A DNA stretch of 22,657 nt, taken from a virus. The DNA lies in IMG/VR virus record IMGVR_UViG_3300042391_000638, positions 1 through 22,657 of that record; one strand, written 5' to 3'. Shown here one piece after another: positions 2,879 to 15,360 of the stretch (position 1 is its first letter; the number at the start of each line of letters is the position of its first letter). The notes below the pieces were generated by a model that saw only the letters and a list, made by a program, of their open reading frames with translations, did no database searches and was not told the origin of the DNA. A program made the position numbers and the translations under genes.

Positions 2879-2997
2879 AAAATGTTGACACCACTACTAC
2901 TATAGAAAAAAATAAAAAAACACTATATAAGAGAGTATATAAAGAAATAAAAAAAAAATAAAAAAAAATTTCTCCGAACCATGCGTGTCAACATTTT
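2879..2997. repeat. 13-base inverted repeats flanking an AT-rich tract
   Basis: AAAATGTTGACAC (2879-2891) and its exact reverse complement GTGTCAACATTTT (2985-2997) enclose about 93 bases that are almost entirely A and T, with long A-runs near 2948-2970. The arms contain ATGTTG, a one-base variant of the ATGTCG site in the neighbouring arrays. The tract would melt easily, as expected of a DNA-unwinding element. Confidence 0.6.
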
Positions 2998-3043
2998 TTT
3001 AGCAACTTCTCAATCCCAGCCTACGATACATCCCCGTTTTTGA

Positions 3044-3080
3044 CAACATTCTATCGACATAGAGCGACATAAGTCGACAT
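3044..3080 (-). repeat. CGACAT array at 10-bp period
   Basis: CGACAT (the reverse complement of ATGTCG) begins at 3055, 3065 and 3075, exactly 10 bases apart, with a one-base variant CAACAT at 3044. It is inverted relative to the array at 2755-2821 and ends about 30 bases before the -33 element of the rightward promoter, so a bound protein could also control that promoter. Confidence 0.7.
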
Positions 3081-3108
3081 GGTGTCAAATATTTTTTTCG
3101 TCTACCCC

Positions 3109-3138
3109 TTGTTTCATTGGAATTAATGCGTATATTTG
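3109..3138 (+). promoter_or_regulatory. Strong Bacteroidota-type promoter, start site almost at the ATG
   Basis: TTG at 3109-3111, 19 bases, TATATTTG at 3131-3138. The first in-frame ATG below it is at 3144, only five bases after the -7 element. This implies a leaderless or near-leaderless message for the zinc-ribbon gene. It may also drive the tRNA and structured-RNA region. Confidence 0.8.
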
Positions 3139-3143
3139 TCAAC

Positions 3144-3374
3144 ATGAAGGTATGCACTAAATGTAATAAGGGCAAGAAGGCTGATTGTTTCCATAAGAAC
3201 TCGAGGTCTAAGGATGGGTTGCACACGATCTGTAAGGTGTGTCGCTTGCCAGAGGTGAAGGTGAAGAAGAAGGAGTGCAGCAAGTGCAAGGTCGTTAAGA
3301 AGCTCACTGAGTATCATGTGTACTCGTTGGGTAGACATGGTGTGTACCCGAGATGTAAAGAATGTAGGAAATAG
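3144..3374 (+). CDS. Small protein with two zinc-ribbon (CxxC...CxxC) repeats
   Basis: A 76-residue, very basic protein (MKVCTKCNKGKKADCFHKNS...). It contains two copies of the same motif: CTKC, then F.KNSRSKDGLHTICKVC, and CSKC, then YHVYSLGRHGVYPRCKEC. Each would bind one zinc ion. The motif is common at the N-terminus of phage HNH endonucleases and in stand-alone phage proteins, but no HNH core is present, so a nuclease activity is not supported; nucleic-acid binding is likely. A TTG start at 3117 would extend the frame by nine residues, but it lies upstream of the -7 promoter element, so ATG 3144 was chosen. The TAG stop overlaps the first base pair of the following tRNA-like element. Its position directly before the structured RNA makes an RNA-binding partner role conceivable. 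Confidence 0.75.
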   Translation: MKVCTKCNKGKKADCFHKNSRSKDGLHTICKVCRLPEVKVKKKECSKCKVVKKLTEYHVYSLGRHGVYPRCKECRK

Positions 3375-3498
3375 TCAGGTGGCGGAATTGGTAGACGCAT
3401 GAATAAAGGTTAATAGTAAGGATAATGTGAGTAACCTCGAAAGACCCGTTAAGAACGCTCATAAGTTATCATACAGGTTCGAATCCTGTCCTCGACTA
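3373..3498 (+). tRNA. tRNA-Leu-like element, enlarged and with bulged acceptor stem
   Basis: The 5' part AGTCAGG-TGGCGGAATTGGTAGACGC matches the acceptor and D-arm of bacterial tRNA-Leu. The 3' part is a perfect T-arm (ACAGG, TTCGAAT, CCTGT) followed by CCT-C-GACT, which pairs with AGTCAGG if one C is bulged, then discriminator A as expected for Leu. The total is about 126 bases, some 40 more than a normal tRNA-Leu. The middle contains a GATAA...TTATC helix and a CGTT/AACG hairpin but no recognisable anticodon stem and loop. It could be a tRNA with an insertion, a decayed tRNA, or a tRNA-like domain of the surrounding RNA. Confidence 0.5.
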
Positions 3499-3600
3499 CT
3501 AGGTGTAATCTCTACCCAAAAAGAGATACTATAAGACGGGAGGCAAGCGTTGGGAATAAAACCGTTAGGATGTCCCAACCAAGTTCTCCCTGAAGAGGTA
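3499..3600 (+). ncRNA. Structured non-coding segment 1 between tRNAs
   Basis: There is no coding frame. Helices seen: ATCTCT/AGAGAT (3508-3527), GGGAG/CTCCC (3538-3590) and, nested inside it, GTTGGGA/TCCCAAC (3549-3579). TCTACC at 3511-3516 can also pair with GGTAGA at 3597-3602. The nested long helices and lack of a T-loop show this is not a tRNA. It is probably part of one long structured transcript with the neighbouring segments. Confidence 0.45.
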
Positions 3601-3674
3601 GAACACTTAGCTCAGTTGGTTAGAGCAATGTCCGCTTAAGACATGGGTCCGTGGTTCGATTCTACGAGTGTTCA
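3601..3674 (+). tRNA. tRNA with anticodon CTT (Lys-like), odd anticodon loop
   Basis: A complete cloverleaf: acceptor GAACACT/AGTGTTC, D-arm GCTC-AGTTGGTTA-GAGC, anticodon stem ATGTC/GACAT, T-arm CGTGG-TTCGATT-CTACG, discriminator A and no encoded CCA. The anticodon loop is CGCTTAA, which places CTT at positions 34-36 and would read AAG (Lys). However position 33, nearly always T, is G. The identity is therefore uncertain, and the molecule may be impaired in decoding or serve another purpose. Confidence 0.8.
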
Positions 3675-3815
3675 CAAAACAAAATATGACTGGCTCGCAA
3701 GACAACTTAACATTGTCGGAGGGAATGCGGATGGTTGAGCATCGTGGCATCGGGAGAACTACTGGAGAGATAAGTTCATGACAGAGAGTAAGTCAGGTGG
3801 GAGGCTCTGTTGTTT
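3675..3815 (+). ncRNA. Structured non-coding segment 2 between tRNAs
   Basis: No coding frame. Visible helices: GACAA/TTGTC (3701-3717), GATG/CATC (3730-3743), GAACT/AGTTC (3756-3777) and ACAGAG/CTCTGT (3781-3810). TGACT near 3687 can also pair with AGTCA near 3791 to enclose most of the segment. The purine-rich joining sequences (CGGAGGGAATGCGG) resemble those of catalytic or scaffold RNAs more than spacer DNA. Confidence 0.45.
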
Positions 3816-3889
3816 GGTCTTTTAACTCAGTTGGTTAGAGTAGCGCACTCATAATGCGAAAGTCCCAGGTTCGAGTCCTGGATGGACCA
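3816..3889 (+). tRNA. tRNA-Met (anticodon CAT)
   Basis: A cloverleaf with acceptor GGTCTTT/ATGGACC (one T-T mismatch and one G-T pair), D-arm ACTC-AGTTGGTTA-GAGT, anticodon arm GCGCA-CTCATAA-TGCGA (the outermost pair is mismatched), T-arm CCAGG-TTCGAGT-CCTGG, discriminator A and no encoded CCA. The loop has T33 and anticodon CAT. The G1-C72 pair argues against an initiator. Elongator Met or a lysidine-modified Ile (AUA) tRNA are both possible. Confidence 0.85.
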
Positions 3890-4173
3890 CATTTTATACC
3901 CGTTATTGTAGTAAACGGCAATATCGGATCATTTTTGCATTATATCGGGTATTAAATAATAGTACCTACCACGCTTCTGGGTTGGGGTGTCACCCAGCCG
4001 AGCGTACCAGGGTAGGTCTTTTGCAAGCCCTGTGTATTTCATTACATAGGCTCAGTACCAAATATGCATCCCGTAAGATCTGCTGCTTGGTCTCTCCGTT
4101 AATGGGAAAGCAGAAATGTATAACCAGTAACACCCCCAAGTAAGACTACCTGATCAGTAGACACTGCTTGGGG
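3890..4173 (+). ncRNA. Structured non-coding segment 3, densely helical
   Basis: About 284 bases without a gene but with many helices: ATACCCG/CGGGTAT (3896-3952); a three-layer nested stem ACCTACC/GGTAGGT (3964-4017), ACGCT/AGCGT (3971-4005) and CTGGGT/ACCCAG (3977-3997); a 10-bp hairpin AGCC-TGTGTA/TACATA-GGCT (4026-4052); TCTGCT/AGCAGA (4079-4114); and CCCCAAG/CTTGGGG (4134-4173) enclosing CTAC/GTAG (4146-4160). The last stem lies just before the next gene but has no T-run. The sequence is GC-richer than its flanks. Such density and nesting indicate a selected RNA structure. Confidence 0.55.
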
Positions 4174-4193
4174 TTAATTTAAAATTATATAGT

Positions 4194-4392
4194 ATGAAAA
4201 CAATAACAAAATCAGTAATTAAATTATCAGAAATTCCAGATAATTTAAAAAAAACAGAATGTTTAATTGGTCATAAGATACATACATATGCTGAATTTCA
4301 TATTGATGATTCAGAAAAAGACGAATTAACATTGTTGCTACTTAATAAGTATCCTAATTTGAAACGTAAGATTAGTTTTTTAATTCATATCG

Positions 4393-4409
<17 letters not shown>
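4194..4409 (+). CDS. Hypothetical protein (71 aa)
   Basis: The ATG follows an AT-rich leader directly behind the CCCCAAG/CTTGGGG stem. The 71-residue product (MKTITKSVIKLSEIPDNLKK...) is mixed alpha/beta with a highly charged C-terminus (HIDEDRR). There is no signal peptide, membrane span or recognised motif. It overlaps the following gene by 17 bases in another frame, and the purines near its end (GATGAAGATAGGAGATAG) may act as a ribosome-binding region. No promoter was seen between it and the tRNA region, so it may be co-transcribed with the structured RNA. Confidence 0.65.
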
Positions 4410-6427
<2,018 letters not shown>

Positions 6428-6438
<11 letters not shown>

Positions 6439-10447: not shown

Positions 10448-12733
10448 ATGGCAGTAATTCCAGCAGGAACTAGATTTGATGCGATTAGAGTAAACGCACA
10501 ATATCTTAACAAGAGATCAGAGTTCACGAACACTAATGATCCAACATATTCAATCGAAGATTTAGCTAACACTATCGGTGCAGCTACTCAAGGACCACAA
10601 GGACCAATAGGTCTTACAGGGGCTACAGGGGCTACAGGACAAACAGGTCCTATGGGACCAGTTGGACCAGCAGGTTTAAACTGGCAGGGAGCTTGGGTAT
10701 CAGGTGCTGATTATTTAGAAGATGATGCTGTAGGTTATAACGGAGCTTCTTGGTTTTGTATAGCTGATATACCTGATGGTACGGTTGCTCCAAACTTAGA
10801 CACGACTCATTGGGCATTATTAGCTTCACAAGGGGCTGTTGGACCTCAAGGTAATCCAGGTGTAAATGGACTACCAGGTCTCCCAGGTATAAATGGTCTT
10901 CCAGGTCCAGTAGGTCTTTTATGGCAAGGAGCTTGGGTATCAGGTAGTTTATATGGTTTAACAGATGCTGTTCTATATAACGGATCTGCTTACTACTGTA
11001 TAGCAGCTACATCGTTCTCAAGTACTACAACACCAGACTTAGACCCTACTAACTGGTCTTTATTAGCTCAAAAAGGAGATCAGGGAATTCAGGGAATTCA
11101 AGGAATTCAAGGTATTCAGGGTATGCAATGGCAAGGAATGTGGGTTCTTAATGGATACTATAGCTTGAATGATGCAGTATTTTACGATGGATCTTCTTAT
11201 ATATCTATATCAGTTACTCCATTTAATAGTACAATTGTACCAAGTTCAGATCCTACAAATTGGTCTTTAGTGGCTCAAAAAGGAAATGATGGAGCAGCAG
11301 GTGGTGGATTAACTGGAGATTCATTTGTATATGTTGATGCAAGTCAAGGTACAGAATTAGATAACGGGTCTGTTCTTTTAAATGTATTGAATACAGCACA
11401 ATTCCTAACTCCTTATGGAAGCCCTATAAGCTTTACAAATAGAGTTACTGTATTGGTTCCTCCAGGGACTTATGACTTAGGTTCTAATACATTAACAATG
11501 ACAACAAATTATATTGATGTTATTTCTTTAACAGGAGGTAGAGATATTGTTATCAAAACATCATCACCTACAGCTGTATTACTTGGAGATCAGGTTAAAC
11601 TTGTAGGTGTTAATACGGATAAAAAAATATCTATTCAATCTGGAGCTTTTGCAGAGGTTGAAAATTGCAAGGCTGGTTATAACTCATTTGGAGGTGACGT
11701 AAATGGTTTATATTTGGCAGGTATATTTAAAAATTGTGAAGCCTTAGGTCAGAGTTTTGGATGGGGTAATGGTTTGACTATTGCAGCAACATTTATAGAT
11801 TGTAAGAGTGGAGATGGTAGTTTTGGTTATGGTAATGGAAATTCTACTGAAGGTACATTTATAAATTGTACATCAGGAACAAATTCATTTGGAACTGGAC
11901 CAAATTCAAATGTATCAGGTACATTCATAGACTGTACGGCAGGACAAAATTCATTTGGATACGCCTCATCTGGATATGTTATTTTACAGGGAACATTTAA
12001 AAATTGTAAAGCAGGAGCTTCTTCATTTGGATCAGGTAGAACTGTTACAGTTACATCTATTATTACAGATTGTACAGCTGGACCATTCTCTTTTGGAAAT
12101 GGATTTAGCACACCAGCATTAGTAACAATAGACTCTAGTTCATTTACAAATTGTAAATCAAATAATGACAGTTTTGGTGCTGGTAAAAAAGTAACTATTA
12201 TTAACTCATCATTTGATAACTGTGAAGGTCAAGATAAATCATTTGGATACACTAGCTTAGTTGCAGGTCCATATGAATTTAATATATCAAGTACATTTAA
12301 AAATTGTAAAGGTGGAGCTAATTCTTTTGGGGCTGGTAATGATTTAACATTAGCAGGTTCATTTATAAACTGTACAGCATTATCTAGTAGCTTTGGATTT
12401 GGAACTAATGTTGTAACATCTGGAACTTTTACAGATTGTACAGCAATAAACGAGTCATTTGGTTCTGGAATTGGATGTACATCAGGTGGAGAGTTTAGAA
12501 ATTGTTTTGCTGGATCGGATTCATTCGGTTCAGGTAATAATGATTCTAAATTTACAGGTAGAGCTTATAACTGTATCGCTGGAGACAATTCATACGGAGG
12601 AGATAACTTGATGCTTCAGGGATTATTAATAGGATGTGTATTAACAGCAGGAACATTTAAAACAATCGATCCAGGGAATGGAGTTACTAGACTTTGTATC
12701 GATGGTAATTATGACCTTAACGAACAACCATAA
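10448..12733 (+). CDS. Modular tail fibre: docking, collagen-like, CBM-like and beta-helix parts
   Basis: The 761 residues run in order: RFDAIRV docking domain (1-45); collagen-like Gly-X-Y stretch (49-77, GPQGPIGLTGATGATGQTG); carbohydrate-binding-like module (79-127, WQGAWVSG..Y...DAV.YNG, ending HWALLA); second collagen stretch (129-157); second module (159-208); a (GIQ)n stretch (211-225); third module (228-278); a linker with PPGTYDL and SLTGGRDIVI; then from about residue 385 a right-handed beta-helix of about 20-25-residue rungs ending in C(K/T)AG..SFG.G. The modules resemble CBM5/12 chitin-binding folds. The beta-helix may be the receptor-binding or glycan-cutting shaft, though no catalytic residues could be assigned. 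The TAA stop overlaps the next ATG as TAATG. Confidence 0.85.
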   Translation: MAVIPAGTRFDAIRVNAQYLNKRSEFTNTNDPTYSIEDLANTIGAATQGPQGPIGLTGATGATGQTGPMGPVGPAGLNWQGAWVSGADYLEDDAVGYNGASWFCIADIPDGTVAPNLDTTHWALLASQGAVGPQGNPGVNGLPGLPGINGLPGPVGLLWQGAWVSGSLYGLTDAVLYNGSAYYCIAATSFSSTTTPDLDPTNWSLLAQKGDQGIQGIQGIQGIQGMQWQGMWVLNGYYSLNDAVFYDGSSYISISVTPFNSTIVPSSDPTNWSLVAQKGNDGAAGGGLTGDSFVYVDASQGTELDNGSVLLNVLNTAQFLTPYGSPISFTNRVTVLVPPGTYDLGSNTLTMTTNYIDVISLTGGRDIVIKTSSPTAVLLGDQVKLVGVNTDKKISIQSGAFAEVENCKAGYNSFGGDVNGLYLAGIFKNCEALGQSFGWGNGLTIAATFIDCKSGDGSFGYGNGNSTEGTFINCTSGTNSFGTGPNSNVSGTFIDCTAGQNSFGYASSGYVILQGTFKNCKAGASSFGSGRTVTVTSIITDCTAGPFSFGNGFSTPALVTIDSSSFTNCKSNNDSFGAGKKVTIINSSFDNCEGQDKSFGYTSLVAGPYEFNISSTFKNCKGGANSFGAGNDLTLAGSFINCTALSSSFGFGTNVVTSGTFTDCTAINESFGSGIGCTSGGEFRNCFAGSDSFGSGNNDSKFTGRAYNCIAGDNSYGGDNLMLQGLLIGCVLTAGTFKTIDPGNGVTRLCIDGNYDLNEQP
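11084..11128 (+). repeat. Five 9-base in-frame tandem repeats (GGAATTCAR)
   Basis: Units GGAATTCAG, GGAATTCAA, GGAATTCAA, GGTATTCAG and GGTATGCAA encode Gly-Ile-Gln repeats of the third collagen-like segment. The near-identity at DNA level allows slippage and so change of fibre length without loss of frame. Confidence 0.85.
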
Positions 12734-13128: not shown

Positions 13129-15360
13129 ATGGCAAATAAAAAAATAACACAATTACCTAGTATATCTGGTCCTTTAAAAGGAACTGATCTATGGGAGGTA
13201 TCTATAGATGATGGAGGATCATTCTCTAGTCATAAAACTACAGGAGATGAGTTAAAAGCATTACTATCTCTAGGTGGTGACCAATATACATTTGTAAAGG
13301 CAGATGGAAATAGTCCATCAGTAAATGGTCAACAATTTTTAGAGGGTTACAACACAGCTATTGATAAATTAAATAATACTGGAACTCCTCAAACATTAAT
13401 TTTGGCTCCAGGAACATATATGTTGAGTCAAGATTTTAACATTGTTGATGGATTAAGTATTGTTTCATTGACAGGTGAGAGAGATGTAAGAATCGATATG
13501 GATGGCTACATCTTCATGATTAAAGATGGTAATACTAAATTAAAAGGATTAAGTTTAACGGCAAGTGGTAATGTTTATTATGATGCTTACGGTACTTATA
13601 ACTGTATAATTGACAACTGCTCTATAAATGCATTTATTGCATGGACTCAGAACATACCATTTTATGGAATCATTAATAATAGTGAGTTATCTGGAATTTA
13701 TGCTCCATTTAGTGGAGAAATTAAGGATAGTACTGCTTTTATTGTTTATACTGATCAATCAACTGTATATGGACTATACTTGACCCCATATTTAGATGGT
13801 GTTAATGTAGGGGCAGGATTTTATTGTGATGGTAATTATGATATTACATTTCAACCAACAATTTTAAATTGTAATGGTAGATTTTTTGATCAGACAAGTG
13901 GTAATACATTTATAGAAGATGGTACATTTAAAAATATTACTAACTTCTCAATGTCTAATTGTAGGGTTTTTGGTAATACTTTATTAGAAAATTGCACAGG
14001 ATATCAAAGAGTATTTGAAAATATTGCTTTTTATCATGTTGTTGGTTTTGTAGATTTAAAAGTTATAAATTGCCATCAGAAAGACAATGATGGAGGTTTC
14101 TTTATTTATTCTAATAAACAAACATATTCAAGTATAAATATAGAATTCAGAGATTGTACAGCTTATGGGAATGCATTTAATTTTCATTATTTTGATACAA
14201 CATTTGATTCATATAATGTATTAGTTGAAAATTGTGTAACAACAGAGACATCATCTCATAATTTTGGTCATATTATTGAAAGTAATGCCTATATTACAGT
14301 TAATGATATAACATTCAAAGATTGTAAGGCTAATGCAGTTGATTGTTTCAACACATCTACAAATATGACTGGTGATTTAGTTGCAGAAAATCAACATTTT
14401 ATTAATTGTAAAGCAGAAGACCAATCATTTTTATATTTTAATGGTCAACAAGTTTTTAAAGCAAATATTGCAAATAATACATTTGAAAATTGTACAGCAG
14501 GATATTCTTCATTTATTTCATTAGAAGAAGTTTTTGAATCATTAATTAATGAAATTAACATAAAAAATTGTACTGGAATAGGTCGTTGTTTCATATCTGC
14601 ATTTGTTTCATCTGGAAATTTGGTTTTAAATAACAATAAACCAGTATATATAGACAACTGTAAGGCAGGTGTTCAATCATTTATTTATGTAGAGAGTTCA
14701 TCAGGTTCAACGGCTAATTTGAATGGAAATGGAAAAATAAGTAATTGTACAGCAACAGATTTTTCATTCTGTAGTGCTTATGATGCGATTGGGTTTGGTA
14801 ATCATTCAATCACTATAAATATGTCAATGGAAAATTGTACAGCACAGAATTTTTCATTTGGATCTATTAATAATACTTTTGGTAGTTGTTATATAGACCA
14901 TGGTACTGGAAATAAATATACTAATTGTATAGCAGAAAGTGCTTCATTTATGGGATTCTTAAATTCTTTATTAAGAAATTGTAGAGCTCAATCTGATTCA
15001 TTTGGAACTGTTTGGATGAATACAAATATGAATGGTGGAGCAAGTGGTACATTTGAAAATTGTTATGGAACTCAATACTGTTTTGGTGGATCAAGTAATA
15101 TATACTTTAATACTCCATCAGCTTATGGAATATTCAAATATTGCACTGGAGAATATGGATGTTTTGGATCTTATTTCTTTGATCCTGGATCCTCATCTGA
15201 TTACACTACAGCAGCAGGAACATTCTTATGGTGTTCAGGATCGCAACCATTTGGAACTCTATTCTCTGGGTTATTAAATGGTGGTGGAACATTAGGTTGG
15301 TCTAAAACAAATAATGCATATAATAATGTAATTTGGTCAAATGATTATTTTAATAAATAA
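13129..15360 (+). CDS. Beta-helix tail fibre or spike (743 aa)
   Basis: The protein begins MANKKITQLPSISGPLKGTD, an N-terminal docking sequence (KITQLP...GTDLWEVS) recurrent in tail proteins of flavobacterial phages. Residues about 55-120 (TFVKADGNSPSVNGQQFLEG, then LAPGTYML and SLTGERDVRI) match the corresponding linker of the 761-aa fibre (PPGTYDL, SLTGGRDIVI). The remaining 600 residues are beta-helix rungs with NC(T/K)A...SF motifs, the same rung type but more diverged. The C-terminal end (AYNNVIWSNDYFNK) has no S74 chaperone. Hence two beta-helix fibres share a shaft type but use different docking modules. No catalytic residues assigned. Confidence 0.85.
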   Translation: MANKKITQLPSISGPLKGTDLWEVSIDDGGSFSSHKTTGDELKALLSLGGDQYTFVKADGNSPSVNGQQFLEGYNTAIDKLNNTGTPQTLILAPGTYMLSQDFNIVDGLSIVSLTGERDVRIDMDGYIFMIKDGNTKLKGLSLTASGNVYYDAYGTYNCIIDNCSINAFIAWTQNIPFYGIINNSELSGIYAPFSGEIKDSTAFIVYTDQSTVYGLYLTPYLDGVNVGAGFYCDGNYDITFQPTILNCNGRFFDQTSGNTFIEDGTFKNITNFSMSNCRVFGNTLLENCTGYQRVFENIAFYHVVGFVDLKVINCHQKDNDGGFFIYSNKQTYSSINIEFRDCTAYGNAFNFHYFDTTFDSYNVLVENCVTTETSSHNFGHIIESNAYITVNDITFKDCKANAVDCFNTSTNMTGDLVAENQHFINCKAEDQSFLYFNGQQVFKANIANNTFENCTAGYSSFISLEEVFESLINEINIKNCTGIGRCFISAFVSSGNLVLNNNKPVYIDNCKAGVQSFIYVESSSGSTANLNGNGKISNCTATDFSFCSAYDAIGFGNHSITINMSMENCTAQNFSFGSINNTFGSCYIDHGTGNKYTNCIAESASFMGFLNSLLRNCRAQSDSFGTVWMNTNMNGGASGTFENCYGTQYCFGGSSNIYFNTPSAYGIFKYCTGEYGCFGSYFFDPGSSSDYTTAAGTFLWCSGSQPFGTLFSGLLNGGGTLGWSKTNNAYNNVIWSNDYFNK

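Follow-up and report, generated by a model that had tools for sequence, protein, structure and literature searches.

An uncultivated phage is represented in IMG/VR by a 22.7-kb fragment (22,657 nucleotides, called the window below), one region of which is best explained as a cluster of discrete genes for small structured RNAs, among which lie two tRNAs and one tRNA-like RNA. Comparison with bacterial loci argues strongly that one of these RNAs, which we call module D, contains in tandem two orphan abiF-type antitoxin RNAs that belong to different sequence classes. The explanation that best accounts for the cluster as a whole, and that we regard as fairly probable, is that it delivers decoy antitoxins against AbiF, with modules B and C perhaps as other decoys and module A perhaps as a carrier of variable inserts.

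Layout of the region

The features discussed below are listed with their coordinates in the window, their strand and the evidence by which they were assigned.

3109–3138, + strand: predicted promoter of the Bacteroidota type, TTG...TATATTTG (pattern match)
3144–3374, + strand: small Cys-rich zinc-finger ORF, Lar-like or endonuclease VII-like (matches to phrog_5558 and phrog_1035)
3373–3499, + strand: module A, tRNA-Leu-like scaffold RNA (tRNA model, 22.7 bits; insert conservation; family)
3527–3599, + strand: module B, hairpin RNA of ~70 nt with conserved loop AUAAAACCGUUAGGAU (homologues, covariation)
3601–3675, + strand: tRNA-Lys (CTT) (ARAGORN; Rfam tRNA, 54 bits)
3685–3815, + strand: module C, RNA of ~130 nt with five helices and a terminator-like hairpin at its end (homologues, covariation, covariance model R2)
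3816–3890, + strand: tRNA-Met (CAT) (ARAGORN; Rfam tRNA, 62.3 bits)
3892–3958, + strand: element E, 67-nt inverted-repeat spacer, conserved before module D (three-phage alignment)
3957–4022, + strand: module D hairpin 1, putative abiF-type antitoxin RNA of the class CCACGCU...AGCGUACCAGGG (host-only abiF covariance model R3, HMM)
4029–4050, + strand: module D helix CCUGUG/CAUAGG (81.7% of cells paired, 20 sequences)
4053–4095, + strand: module D hairpin 2, putative abiF-type antitoxin RNA of the class GCAUCCCGUNAGAUCUGC (covariance model R1)
4098–4131, + strand: module D helix GUUA.UGG/CCA.UAAC; GGGAAA and UAUAAC are conserved (double changes at 3 of 8 pairs; 93.8% paired)
4134–4173, + strand: terminator-like hairpin of module D, its CUGAUCA loop conserved (double changes at 7 of 11 pairs)

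A first-pass annotation, made from the window's letters, had proposed a non-coding stretch of structured RNA interrupted by tRNAs. The ORF, tRNA and covariation results bear this out for positions 3373–4180: no ORF of at least 60 amino acids lies in 3375–4193, the following ORF starts at 4194, and the right-hand limit of the RNA stretch falls at ~4180, as against the 4173 given earlier. Over the whole region the folding free energy was not significant (z = −1.42, with 2 of 20 shuffles equally good), and free energy alone is weak evidence for structured RNA here. Modules B, C and D are real structured RNAs; module boundaries were drawn from homology, the alignments are modest in depth and the E-values come from short calibrations.

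The pattern TTG-N17-23-TANNTTTG has a single match in 2900–4300, at 3109–3138, which makes the promoter previously placed there plausible, and it is probably the predicted start of the cluster transcript. The first gene 3' of this promoter is the zinc-finger ORF, whose stop codon overlaps module A. We suppose that the whole cluster would probably be made as one precursor starting at this promoter, and that host tRNA-processing enzymes would cut the precursor at the ends of the tRNAs and the tRNA-like RNA. Modules C and D each have a terminator-like 3' hairpin of their own. A homologue of the zinc-finger protein in the related contig L003 (about 3690–4029) contains additional copies of the CxxC repeat.

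The phage had been taken to be of the Bacteroidota-phage kind, in agreement with the relatives of its terminase, which is 65% identical to the homologue of a Manatee Spring podovirus and 36–41% identical to those of Cellulophaga (Pachyviridae) and Flavobacterium (Elemovirus) phages. It also encodes its own GroEL and GroES (4607–6175 and 6172–6438; phrog_5725 and phrog_3188; Pfam Cpn60 and Cpn10), and two large tail-fibre-like proteins (10448–12733 and 13129–15360) that contain many short repeats of the FxNCxAGxxSFG type.

Module D and its abiF-type hairpins

As resolved here, module D spans 3957–4180. Its alignment of 20 sequences contains 60 double-changed cells, and its covariation score of 0.288, versus 0.123 for shuffled data, was reached in none of 500 shuffles. 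A nested helix pointed out in the first-pass annotation (ACCTACC/GGTAGGT, ACGCT/AGCGT, CTGGGT/ACCCAG) is indeed present, at about 3964–4016, and corresponds to hairpin 1. A candidate pseudoknot, UCUGCU/AGCAGA, is available in a subset of sequences only, so we do not claim it.

To identify relatives of the hairpins in bacteria, AbiF genes were collected by the protein profile PF07751 from the Bacteroidota and from the phylum of a Gammaproteobacterium. Most of the collected genes are immediately preceded by a hairpin RNA, and these RNAs fall into several sequence classes. An HMM built from six of these upstream RNAs has its sole window match at 3958–4024 (E=9.5e-11), and because the AbiF genes were collected by protein, this test of hairpin 1 is independent of the window. 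A covariance model of 26 RNAs (R3), the training set of which also holds RNAs from the search with the hairpin 2 core, has its best window match at 3957–4022 (41.6 bits, E=5.4e-9). The apical loop of hairpin 1 is longer than in most bacterial versions.

A search of 84,980 bacterial and archaeal genomes located the 18-nt core of hairpin 2, GCATCCCGTNAGATCTGC, at 21 places, all bacterial; AbiF/AbiD-type genes directly follow at least 10 of them. A covariance model of five AbiF-linked bacterial hairpins (R1) matches the window at 4053–4095 with 35.4 bits (E=2.1e-9, against E=0.12 for the next match). As the core had originally been taken from the window, this test is partly circular with respect to sequence, though not with respect to genomic context.

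The Rfam abiF model, RF03085, has no match in the window even at E≤10. This model also misses the hairpins of the GCAUCCCG class that are linked to AbiF in bacteria, and it covers only part of the AbiF-linked RNA classes. RF03085 is narrow and recognizes another class only, and therefore the window hairpins are invisible to Rfam. Upstream of the AbiF genes in L223–L286, at least four classes can be distinguished, namely CGCUUCCCGUNAGAUCAGCG, CCACGCU..AGCGUACCAGGG, GCAUCCCGUNAGAUCUGC and CCAAGCCUCU..AUGCUCAAAUC.

Module D resembles the abiF RNA (RF03085) and its Clostridioides difficile example RCd22 in several respects. Its hairpins share their outer stem, short inner stem, conserved loop and 3' bulge, its two classes also directly precede AbiF genes in Bacteroidota and Gammaproteobacteria, and, like RCd22, it has two motifs in tandem. 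However, it differs in that no phage AbiF gene accompanies it, two classes are combined in one RNA, this RNA is a longer one within a tRNA cluster, and the Rfam model does not match it.

With the abiF-type models, hairpins were detected at dozens of further phage loci; they occur singly or in tandem, in phages that are unrelated. The carriers include a crAss-like contig (L036, by its portal protein) and podovirus-like relatives of the window. In nine named relatives, hairpin 2 and the module A frame (sought at three mismatches) were both absent. We found no Abi_2 gene (PF07751) in 51 phage records (38 + 13), most of which are fragments such that AbiF could sit in the unsequenced parts of some; bacterial controls were positive. 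Module D has the two properties that mark a phage RNA antitoxin mimic, in that it is a homologue of a host antitoxin and the toxin gene is absent.

Several related arrangements were seen elsewhere. L016, L027 and L051 have an upstream second tandem hairpin copy, with the core GCATCTCGTAAGATCTGC, before the main hairpin. In L068, a Bacteroidetes MAG contig (~1965, minus strand), a hairpin of the GCAUCCCG class is followed at a distance of ~40 nt by one that resembles the RF03085 class; an AbiF gene was not found just downstream, making this another orphan dual array, perhaps on a phage contig. The Bacteroidaceae gut MAG contigs L070, L074, L078 and L080 have an orphan hairpin, AACCCGUCAGCAUCCCGUAAGAUCUGCUGGCGGGUC, with no adjoining AbiF, which may come from contaminating phage DNA or be an RNA gene of its own.

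Proposed function of module D and alternatives

The C. difficile abiF RNA RCd22, with its two tandem motifs, acts in trans, binding AbiF directly and thereby neutralizing it; mutations that destabilize its stems abolish this neutralization (PMC12373285). In Prevotellaceae, the AbiF homodimer has two RNA copies bound (PMC12373285). There is also a precedent for phage RNA antitoxin mimicry: phage PhiTE defeats ToxIN by a mimic of ToxI (PMC3475682). Because published abiF antitoxins act in trans, and given the ToxI precedent, we infer a corresponding function for module D. It would be expressed as surplus antitoxin RNA during infection and, most likely, would bind host AbiF toxins in trans. Host AbiF, an abortive-infection nuclease, would thereby be held inactive, to the benefit of the phage. 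The two hairpin classes might suit two kinds of AbiF, as suggested by the fact that they occur apart, each before different AbiF genes.

Like the PhiTE mimic, module D is a phage-borne RNA that resembles a host RNA antitoxin, with the toxin absent. However, its putative target belongs to another toxin family (HEPN AbiF), and while the PhiTE mimic arose in rare escape mutants, the hairpins of module D are conserved in many unrelated phages. An abiF-type RNA in a phage genome also has a parallel in the lytic cyanophage S-CREM1, in which an abiF sRNA match was reported (PMC9964418), with its role left unconfirmed (PMC12197685). That case is a single match to RF03085, whereas module D consists of tandem hairpins of other classes, which we compared with host AbiF loci, and these hairpins occur in Bacteroidota-type phages, including a crAss-like one.

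Two other accounts of the hairpins deserve consideration. Bacterial copies are placed in cis before abiF, and AbiF systems can be borne by prophages (PMC12373285), such that the hairpins might be relics or cis-regulators of a phage AbiF toxin-antitoxin system that has since been lost. We consider this unlikely: a relic would decay, but covarying stems and an invariant core are kept in 20 phage sequences that lack Abi_2, and an array that joins two classes in tandem would be unexpected. Alternatively, the hairpins might be terminators, processing signals or sites for phage proteins, in which case the likeness to abiF RNA would be due to shared ancestry only. In favor of such a role, the minimal hairpin in the crAss-like and other contigs precedes CUUUUU, just before an ORF. 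However, the conserved loop and 3' bulge are precisely what AbiF-linked RNAs conserve, and termination needs neither, so this account also seems improbable to us in comparison with a decoy antitoxin.

Module A, the other modules and their arrangement

In module A, the acceptor (AGUCAGG/CCUcGACU), the D-arm and the T-arm are constant, and an insert of ~72 nt replaces the anticodon arm. Scored as a tRNA, this Leu-like element (3374–3497) reaches 22.7 bits versus a cut-off of 29 bits, and it fails the tRNA-Leu test. Its frame is that of a family with a constant acceptor, AGUCAGG/CCUGACU, a constant T-arm and a variable insert; the window's copy has one additional C in the 3' acceptor strand.

The exact 3' end of the frame, CAGGTTCGAATCCTGTCCTGACTAC, occurs in at least 120 viral contigs. 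Collected around these ends and near variants of them, the family comprises at least 156 distinct elements in at least 117 phage loci, with lengths of 70 to about 320 nt (the longest may span two). Among the matches listed, 151 of the 156 elements have the 5' acceptor AGTCAGG, and the inserts form 133 unrelated clusters, including 119 singletons. AGTCAGG lies 40–330 nt upstream of 147 of the 162 3' ends listed, compared with a mean of 2.7 for 7-mers of the same composition. Position −1 is U in 132 of the 156 listed elements, and therefore an acceptor of eight pairs is possible. One 62-kb contig contains 11 copies of the frame within three mismatches, and others contain 8. Among the carriers are T4-like relatives of Flavobacterium phage immuto (L122). 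A search of 395 Bacteroidota genomes that allowed one mismatch gave no copy of the frame, and in no record of a cultured phage were both of its ends seen.

The window element, insert included, is common to five phages with a column identity of about 91%, which argues that inserts are maintained where they are present. This conservation also bears on the possibility that module A is a degenerate or intron-bearing tRNA-Leu, since decay would not produce it. While the D-arm and T-arm do match tRNA-Leu, and ARAGORN calls some family members intron-bearing tRNAs, so many members share the frame, with so many unrelated inserts and no anticodon arm, that we find this possibility doubtful. As a guess, the frame, which suits RNase P and RNase Z and favors stability, might act as a stable, self-processing carrier of variable decoys. 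A literature search, with thin coverage of subscription journals, returned no such tRNA-frame family, which is undescribed so far as that search reached. A constant tRNA frame with more than 100 unrelated inserts, for which we did not find a described counterpart, is directly testable.

Tentatively, a more general arrangement is conceivable, mainly in phages of Bacteroidota-type hosts, in which tRNA clusters house an RNA counter-defence arsenal composed of tandem, multi-class antitoxin mimics and a hypervariable display of tRNA-frame decoys. It is similarly speculative that host tRNA enzymes would make and trim the frame, and that the set of each phage would number up to about ten. AbiF has been proposed as the ancestor of Cas13, and the crRNA is likely to have its forerunner in the AbiF antitoxin RNA. 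If the hypothesis is true, orphan AbiF-type antitoxin RNAs in phages would be a natural inhibitor of the AbiF/Cas13 lineage, the presence of abiF RNAs in lytic phages would be explained, and phage tRNA clusters would conceal counter-defence RNAs that are missed by gene callers and Rfam.

For module B, seven distinct phage sequences are available, in which 6 of 14 pairs and 12 cells are double-changed; the covariation score was 0.364, versus 0.144 for shuffled data, and none of 500 shuffles was as good. Its loop ACCGUUAGGAU resembles CCCGUUAGAUC of hairpin 2. We do not class module B as an abiF RNA, as the abiF models give no match in it.

Module C has 12 homologues, with 96% of cells paired over the 33 proposed pairs. 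Double changes affect 13 of the 33 pairs and 31 cells; none of 500 shuffles was as good, and slid controls were far lower. The loop-loop helix CUUAAC/GUUAAG pairs fully in every row, with variation on one side only. A kissing loop of CUUAAC (3706–3711) with GUUGAG (3734–3739) is therefore probable, although the data are consistent with it rather than proof of it. No host counterpart of module C was found by its model in 395 Bacteroidota genomes, and blastn of the modules against cultured phages gave nothing other than tRNA or chance matches. A search pattern, CAAGTAAGACTACC..., matched the near relative only. We guess that modules B and C might act on other host factors, as decoys or as antitoxins. 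In L009, element E contains a promoter-like sequence, TTTG-N20-TAATTTTG, as judged by eye.

The arrangement of the modules varies among relatives. L002 and L003 are the nearest relatives by GroEL. The order in L002 is tRNA-Lys, the Leu-like element, an ORF, module C, more ORFs, tRNA-Met and module D, while in L003 module C alone is present. L009 and L010 have C and E, then an ORF, then D, and many viral contigs have one hairpin by itself. Because the modules are shuffled, separated by genes or solitary in relatives, we regard them as separate units. The homologues do exhibit strong covariance, as had been proposed for a check, but inside the separate modules.

The first-pass annotation had favored one very large ornate RNA, of the GOLLD or ROOL kind, interrupted by tRNAs. 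Although modules B, C, E and D follow in this order and nearly contiguously in L042 and L014, and GOLLD RNA is also found near tRNAs, we view such an RNA as highly unlikely in light of the reordering and solitary pieces just described, the separate terminator-like hairpins that close C and D, and the Rfam scan, in which tRNAs alone exceed the cut-off and neither the GOLLD (RF01998) nor the ROOL covariance model has a match at the gathering level or at E≤10. The window's RNAs are like GOLLD and ROOL in being structured phage RNA near tRNAs, but they are modular small RNAs and not one large fold. Another resemblance is to the tRNA cluster of phage T4, where stable small non-tRNA RNAs lie among the tRNAs and are released by tRNA processing; the window likewise has small non-tRNA RNAs interspersed with phage tRNAs.

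Three further non-coding stretches of L002 that look structured lie between genes and tRNAs (2545–2645, 2774–2850 and 4340–4440; fold z of −1.9, −1.6 and 0.3, respectively), and could be additional RNA modules. A gene for a predicted lipoprotein of ~119 amino acids is located between RNA modules in L002 (3388–3747), and between E and D in L009 and L010.
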